A stretch of DNA of 64,000 nucleotides from contig NC_061068.1 of assembly GCF_021917145.1 (NCBI RefSeq), positions 6,341,344 to 6,405,343 of the forward strand, given 5' to 3'. The stretch comes from Hypomesus transpacificus. Lineage: Eukaryota > Chordata > Actinopteri > Osmeriformes > Osmeridae. The notes beneath the pieces were generated by a model. It ran no database searches, was not told the DNA's origin, and was given only the letters and a program-made list of their open reading frames with translations. Position numbers and translations under genes: made by a program. The stretch's first letter is position 1. Each line of letters starts with the position of its first letter. Below, one piece after another: positions 12 through 3,000 of the stretch.

Positions 12-3000
12 CTTTAAATCGCTCCAAGAGATGTCGCCCGACATACCAACATGCCGTCTCAAAGTTTGGGAAGGGAGTGAGGCTTCTCACCTTTAGTCGC
101 TTTTCTACTTCGTAGGCTCTATGCAGAGAGACAGTTTGGGGCTTAGAAATACATTTAAATGTAACATTTAGAAGACACTCTTATCCAGAGCGACTTCCAG
201 TAAATACAGGGACATTCCCCCCGAGGCAAGTAGGGTGAAGTGCCTTGCACAAGGACACTACGTCATTTTTACGCCTCGGAATCGAACCGGCAACCGTCTG
301 ATTAAGAGCCAGATTCCCTAACCGCTTAGCCATCTGACATTTAAGAGACCCACATCAACTCGAACATCAACAGAAAACCAAACTAATCATTATGATAACA
401 CAGTAACAACGTACTTTATGCGTTTCATCAGGAATTCAAATTTGATGGATTTAATAGTGAAATACAGATTAGCATTGAAGTAAAACTGCACCCTTCCTCA
501 CCTCATCTGCATCTCCACACTCAGGTTGTGGACAAAGTGTCCAGAGAATGCCAGGCAGTCAACTGGAGTCAGTATTGCATTTATCCAACCTGAAATAATT
601 GAAGTACACACTAGTAATTATAGGTGAGCTCACATGATTAAATTATAAACAGTATTTCTTTAAGAGCCACCCGTACCCGATGGAATGAACAGAGTCTGTC
701 CTTGTTTCAGTGTACATTTGTAGCACTTGTCCACCTGATCAGCAAAGAACATCTCGCTGTGATTGGATGATGACCTCCAGCGCTCATACAGAGACAGGTT
801 GGCAGAAGTCGGCTTGATCAAGAAAAATATTTTCTCTCCCTGAAAAAGGGAAACAAAATGCACAGAGGTATATGTAGTGTTTCCATAAAGATCAGATTCA
901 GATACATTTTACAATATGTATTACTCTACCTATACTCTCTAGGTAAATTATAAAGTTAAAGTTGCTATTTCACCCACCTTGAGGACATGGTACCAGACAG
1001 AGGCACCGCCACACTCAATATGGAAGTCTGTGTAGCTGTCTTTCACACAGATGAGACAGTACTTGGTGACTTTGGGCTTGCCAAGCAGAGCATCGTCAGG
1101 CCAGTAGTTTCCTACCCAGGATAACCTCCTCACTATCTGGGGACTCTCCACTATACTGTCCATCCTAAGAGAAAAAAAAAGGTTTGTATAACTTATTATT
1201 ACTGCAATTCAAGCAAGAAACTGTTGAGGGGCAGCTATGCGATTCGAGAGATATAATTCAGTATATGTTTATTGTGAGAGGTTCTATTTATGTTGTGAAA
1301 CTTGTTTGAATGAGGCATCTAACGTCAAAATGCATCCACTCCTATTTTAGGACAGTATGGGAGATTAGCTGCGCTTTTATTTTGAAAATCTTAAAATCCT
1401 TATTGATGTTGTGTTCACAGTACTGCTAGAATGGGTGGCAGGATGGATTAAGTCATATTTAAATGTTTATGTTTTGGAATATTTCCATTTCATGATATTG
1501 ATTCTTCTTAGCTATTTCATATTTAAATTCACATAATATCAGCAACTTTCCAGGGACTAAAAATCTATTTAAATTATTTGAAACATTAAACATGATATTT
1601 TTATAATCTATAAAAAATATATTTTTTATAGATTTACTTTGGATTTACCTTGTGTCTGAAAATTCCAAGTTGATCACATTTAAAACTTTCTTTCTGTTTG
1701 TGCTATAGTAGTAATCAACAAACTCCTTGAGTTTCATCTTGCTGTCCGTCTGTTTGGTAACCTCAATAACATCAACACCAACATCTGGACCTGCCACAAA
1801 AAAGATGGATGAGATTAGAAAGAGGCATTTAACAACAAAACATAAAATCTGGTACTGTTCAAAATTATTGATAAAGCCAGCATAAATAGAAGTTAATGTA
1901 AAGGTGAAAGTGGTTTTGCATGTCTGGGGGTCTAATGCACAACAGCAAGGGAGAGGCGCCCTCTGCTGATAAAATAGAGGCTCTTTGAAAGAGTCTTTTA
2001 AGTAACGAATCTGTCCAGTGTGAGGTAGTGACATTTTAAATCATTGTTTATATGCATGCAATGATACCAGTTTCAAGTTCATGACTCATGACATTTGAAA
2101 TGTAATGTTGAAATGTGTTGATGTTAGCACAACAACTCAATACATACCAACATAGTTCTCAACATCACTGATGTAGAAAGTTGGAGCTGGCATGGACATA
2201 TCCAGACCGTCTTTCTTCTGGACGAGAATAGGTTCATTAAAACCAGTCTCCTCCAAGTAGTCCATTGTCAGTTGACTGCCATTCAGTTTAACCACTACAT
2301 CTTCAGCACTAGGAGAAAAATAAAACATTACAAGCATTCAAAACAAAGGTAAAAAGTCTGAGAAATGTATGGGTAACAAACTGACAATAAAGGCAGGAAT
2401 TTCTGTCTGTGTGTATCTGCCTGCCTGTGGCGGGATTGTCTTGAGAACCGGGAATTGGATAAGGTTGAAATTTGCCATGTTTATAGCTCAGGATCCAAGG
2501 ATGTGCAGTTTTGCAGGCAACATTGTTTGGATACGTTAAATGCAAAACGAGGAACAATCTAATAGCATGCAATGGTTATAGCATATAACCACCCAAACCC
2601 CCATGCAATGAACTGTGCAACAGGCTCCACTTCGCCACTTTTTTTTTCTTTCTCACATTTCTATAACATGAGGGCAACATGGGGGCTAAAGGGTAAAGTT
2701 ATACTGTAGGTATAGGTATATTGTAGGTATAGGTATACTGGAGGTAAAGTTATACTGTAGATAAATCGCAAGGTAAATCGCAAGGTTTCATTAACCATAC
2801 CATAAATAAATTGCTTGGATGTATTGTTCATAGTAATAGTATACTGTAGGTATAGGTATACTGTAGGTATACTGTAGGTATGGGTATACTGTAGGTATAG
2901 GTATACTGTAGGTATACTGTAGATAAAGGTATACTGTAGGTATACTGTAGGTATGGGTATACTGTAGGTATACTGTAGATAAAGGTATACTGTAGGTATA

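Follow-up and report, generated by a model that had tools for sequence, protein, structure and literature searches.

Does a PHF2 protein whose JmjC metal site reads His, Glu and Asn, in place of the His, Asp and Tyr of human PHF2, still act as a demethylase, or does it serve as a reader or scaffold? The question is raised by the phf2 gene of Hypomesus transpacificus, part of which lies in the stretch of DNA analyzed here (64,000 nucleotides of contig NC_061068.1, positions 6,341,344 to 6,405,343; referred to as the window, whose own numbering is used for all coordinates). Human PHF2 was reported to demethylate H3K9me2, an activity that is impaired by the H249A replacement and reportedly raised by phosphorylation of S655 (PMC9986243). 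The demethylase role of Phf2 in cells has been questioned, although in vitro demethylation has been reported, and the mammalian protein is described as a reader of H3K4me3 that acts through its PHD finger and binds cohesin with a YEY motif at residues 673-675 (PMC11790891).

Structure and identity of the phf2 gene

The gene is carried by the minus strand and the window begins inside it, so that nine exons could be delineated. Exon 1 (7395-7492) contains the start codon and the first part of the PHD finger, the second part of which is found in exon 2 (4252-4337; placed by Pfam and the alignment to human PHF2). The same alignment places the linker encoded by exon 3 (4043-4157), exon 4 (2148-2308) and exon 5 (1649-1790). 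The JmjC domain follows in exons 6 to 8, and exon 9 (12-118) encodes the first part of the Jumonji helical domain as identified by Pfam, after which the gene runs on outside the window. The nine GT donors and the eight AG acceptors (from exon 2 on) are all standard, and no frameshift or stop was encountered across these nine exons, which joined in frame yield 382 residues with ATG first. The spliced protein aligns to residues 1-382 of human PHF2 (PDB 8f8y) without gaps (E 1.2e-227) and with 311 of the 382 residues identical; given the absence of gaps, the human residue numbering applies exactly. Three Pfam families were recovered above cut-off, namely PF00628 (PHD finger), PF02373 (JmjC) and PF17811 (Jumonji helical domain), the match to the last spanning the first 43 of its 104 positions as the query protein ends there. 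The order of PHD finger, JmjC and helical domain is common to the fish protein and human PHF2 (KDM7C).

Within a tree of six sequences, for which the fish phf8 was entered with a Lys at position 263 where the DNA reads Arg, the fish protein groups with human PHF2 and not with PHF8 or KDM7A (support 1.0). Over the 228 residues compared it shares 188 identities with human PHF2, 154 with human PHF8 and 140 with human KDM7A. Judged by its sequence, the locus is a genuine phf2 orthologue. The initial annotation had named a second intact phf2 copy as the finding that would speak for an assembly error; when the same 437-Mb genome was searched twice, with exon 6 (68 aa) and with exons 1-6 (263 aa), a single phf2 locus was revealed, both searches scoring the best candidates only. 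Outside the window (L007), the ten conserved phf2 blocks that were looked for are all present, as unspliced exon sequence and in the proper order, up to a stop codon that comes after KILKIHRNGKLLL.

One phf2 intron contains a minisatellite (2839-3088) of about 15 copies of the unit GTATACTGTAGGTATAG, although 45-bp units also fit. Upstream of phf2 and on the same strand, open frames are found at 9715-19356 that we take to be fam120a-like, presumably as in human, where FAM120A and PHF2 have the same relative position and orientation; three pieces of these frames were tried against Pfam and gave no match. They are followed on the minus strand by a CAS-family scaffold gene (20860-24683) with SH3, Serine_rich and CAS_C domains, which lies close to a cstf1-like gene (30794-32775, minus strand) whose WD40 repeats are found at 31258-31779 and whose CSTF1 dimerisation domain spans 32437-32775. 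Presumably these two resemble the human CASS4-CSTF1 pair, which we take to reside on another human chromosome than PHF2. A (TC)n run of around 84 copies is located at 36194-36362, and the plus strand carries one open frame of 1443 aa (36836-41164), for which matches to C2H2 zinc fingers were weak and below cut-off.

Residues at the metal site

The JmjC exons 6 (978-1164; first part of the domain, placed by Pfam and the human alignment), 7 (677-839; middle part, K266 kept) and 8 (502-589; end of the domain, placed by the human alignment) are in frame and each is flanked by an AG acceptor and a GT donor. Exon 6 encodes FHIECGG, in which His249 (codon CAT, 1020-1022, minus strand) is kept and position 251 is occupied by Glu (GAG, 1014-1016, minus strand), where human PHF2 and the PHF8 and KDM7A of both human and the same genome have Asp. 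Exon 8 encodes GWINAIL with Asn at position 321 (AAT, 579-581, minus strand), a residue that is Tyr in human PHF2 and His in PHF8 and KDM7A. The combination H249/E251/N321 that was read in the initial annotation is thereby confirmed, considering the in-frame exons, the gapless human numbering and the three codons, and its remark that human PHF2 has a Tyr where PHF8 and KDM7A carry a His was borne out by the alignment (His-Asp-Tyr versus His-Asp-His). In a pattern search that allowed any residue at the ligand position, each of the metal-site motifs occurred once in the window and none was found in the 20 kb downstream of it. An alternative exon with the canonical residues was rejected, as none is present in either region.

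Human PHF2 and the fish protein have H249, K266, Y259, T246 and the lack of the second histidine in common, and they differ in that the former has D251, Y321 and S252 and the latter E251, N321 and C252. Elsewhere in exon 6, codon 219 (1110-1112) specifies Gly (GGA) in the fish protein, whereas the five other KDM7 sequences have the Glu219 of the SWVENYWP block. The motifs HID and GWIHA are present in all five KDM2/KDM7-like loci that were examined among the JmjC genes of this genome, which are phf8 (C18) and kdm7a (C7), so named by best similarity to the human sequences, and three kdm2-like loci (C22 twice and C24), identified from motif and similarity. Among these five the ligand change is, on the sequences compared, specific to phf2. 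PHF8 and KDM7A are related to fish phf2 over the whole of the compared part (150 and 138 of 228 residues identical, respectively, for the same-genome copies) and retain HxD...H, unlike fish phf2.

The two replacements are not of equal weight. Active JmjC demethylases are described as having HxD/E...H (PMC7192584), so that Glu251 is within the standard set of active enzymes, though unlike the residue in the five other KDM7 sequences compared, and a loss of function by D251E was rejected on this ground. With HxE present and the third His replaced by Asn, the HxD/E...H triad is incomplete. The absence of the second iron-binding histidine agrees with the survey of Hahn et al. (2008), which included zebrafish and two pufferfish and found it missing from 'all Phf2 proteins' (PMC2453528); in the accessible text of that paper no third-position residue is given for fish Phf2. 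The Phf2 of Tetraodon nigroviridis, in which the second histidine is missing as well, reportedly also lacks the 2-oxoglutarate lysine that is retained in the fish protein studied here (PMC2453528). The Tyr at position 321, a trait of human PHF2 that has not been established as a family-defining mark, is absent too. Thus, as far as these sources reach, a fish Phf2 without the second histidine is already known and what is new is the Asn where human has Tyr. Neither Asn321 nor Glu251 of phf2 was found in the open-licence PMC text, and the motif letters gave no match in the text of papers. Pattern scans of viral_contigs returned three matches and no relatives, and those of genome_contigs five matches and one locus (L024), which was dismissed since its 26-residue match reads through a stop.

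Conservation of the JmjC domain and the reader elements

The initial annotation had described the fold and the PHD cage as conserved and the chemistry as 'relaxed', and the first half of this description stands. Within the JmjC core (residues 201-346) the PHF2 proteins of human and this genome are identical at 122 of 146 positions, compared to 126 for KDM7A and 134 for PHF8, which indicates that the domain appears to be held by selection although the ligands vary. Domain-wide relaxation was not clearly supported, since the conservation is about that of KDM7A (Fisher p 0.62); it was below that of PHF8 at borderline significance (p 0.049), and a mild relaxation of the PHF2 core relative to PHF8 is possible on these counts. 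The number of changes unique to a single sequence (228 positions, six sequences) was 8 for fish phf2, 9 for human PHF2, 10 for fish kdm7a, 6 for human KDM7A and 2 for each PHF8. Comparisons of this kind gave no sign of a general decay of the PHF2 JmjC domain.

When the 24 differences are placed at random over the 146 core positions, the probability that at least two of the three ligand sites are hit is 0.07, and the changes at these sites are therefore statistically unremarkable. The ligand positions of PHF2 thus appear to vary about as readily as other positions, with no special protection. T246, Y259 and K266 are identical in all six KDM7 sequences; they correspond to positions -3, +6-8 and +13-15 of the HxD motif as listed in PMC2453528, the assignment of the residues being ours. 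Their retention at the 2-oxoglutarate positions would suggest selection for cofactor binding. In addition, N194 and H335 are common to the PHF2 proteins of both species, where the other four sequences have S and N, which makes it probable that the PHF2 pocket had diverged from that of the paralogues before the two lineages parted and was different already in the common ancestor of fish and human.

With respect to the reader function, residues Y7, M20 and W29 (exon 1), which we take to be the PHD-cage residues of PHF2, are unchanged relative to human. The C-terminal half of the protein contains a YEY motif, VRDEYEYVSDEGELKIDEF (L007, outside the window), like the one described for mammalian Phf2 (PMC11790891), and cohesin binding is predicted.

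Functional readings of the altered site

We somewhat favor the view that fish phf2 encodes a conserved reader/scaffold in which the demethylase chemistry would be weak or absent. Most likely, the protein would be recruited to H3K4me3 at active promoters by its PHD finger, and the YEY motif in its C-terminal half may dock cohesin, both partners being carried over from mammalian PHF2. The pocket retains His249, still has a carboxylate at position 251 (Glu) and is unchanged at the 2-oxoglutarate positions, with Asn321 as the third metal-site residue, and the main role of the JmjC fold would be structural or ligand-sensing, with little or no metal binding and demethylation. A described parallel is Epe1 of fission yeast (HxE...Y), which likewise has HxE, lacks the second histidine and was proposed to have a non-enzymatic role at chromatin (PMC7192584), and for which demethylase activity in vitro was undetectable (PMC11790891); its third residue is Tyr instead of Asn, and the likeness is drawn from the published description. 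The initial annotation had likewise proposed a retained reader/scaffold role with relaxed or lost chemistry. This is supported by the conservation of the PHD finger, the JmjC domain and the YEY motif and by the lack of a His as third ligand; as argument for a loss that is particular to this fish it is weakened, considering that D251E is no loss in itself (PMC7192584) and that the second histidine is missing beyond this fish (PMC2453528).

Two observations speak against weak chemistry: human PHF2, likewise without the second histidine, reportedly demethylates H3K9me2, an activity impaired by H249A (PMC9986243), and the residues at the 2-oxoglutarate positions are kept. Given that activity and the doubts about its role in cells (PMC11790891), the sequence by itself does not establish a loss of chemistry. 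The main alternative, a slow or regulated demethylase, would accommodate these observations: Fe(II) would be bound by His249 and Glu251, two sites would be taken by 2-oxoglutarate, and a water near Asn321 would complete the shell. Like human PHF2, such an enzyme might be switched on by phosphorylation, as reported for S655, or by a partner, and its HxE belongs to the canonical set of active enzymes (PMC7192584). We nevertheless consider it rather unlikely: the side chain of Asn, being shorter than that of His or Tyr, may fall short of the metal, and an unsystematic look at the literature turned up no third-position Asn in an active JmjC demethylase.

How the Asn arose is a separate matter, compatible with either functional reading. 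It may stem directly from the ancestral His, the second histidine then having been lost separately in the fish and human PHF2 lineages. A single base change suffices to turn a His codon into one for Asn or for Tyr, and likewise a Tyr codon into one for Asn, so that the sequence does not require an intermediate with Tyr, but the shared N194 and H335 suggest that the pocket was drifting already in the common ancestor, and we regard separate losses as improbable. A mistake in sequencing or assembly, or decay of this copy, is far less plausible still, considering that two separate codons in two exons are involved, that the nine exons are free of frameshifts and stops with standard splice sites, and that the conserved C-terminal blocks extend to the stop of the one phf2 locus found. 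A pseudogene was rejected on the basis of the open frame in the window and these blocks.

The preferred reading of a reader/scaffold can be carried one step further, tentatively and with less than even confidence. The step from enzyme to pseudo-demethylase might have been completed in the fish PHF2 lineage, leaving no side chain at the third position that is likely to reach the metal, while the fold and the 2-oxoglutarate pocket remained under selection. If so, the JmjC domain would be a non-catalytic module, for instance a docking surface or a sensor of 2-oxoglutarate or metal, and the ancient function of PHF2 would not depend on the tyrosine ligand seen in mammals. Asn321 would imply that the tyrosine ligand is not invariant in PHF2. 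Opinion is divided between PHF2 as a true demethylase and as a reader/scaffold, and a natural orthologue with Asn for Tyr and the rest of the pocket kept provides a ready test: if this orthologue serves the role of PHF2, the metal chemistry that has been proposed for Tyr321 would not be what selection preserves.
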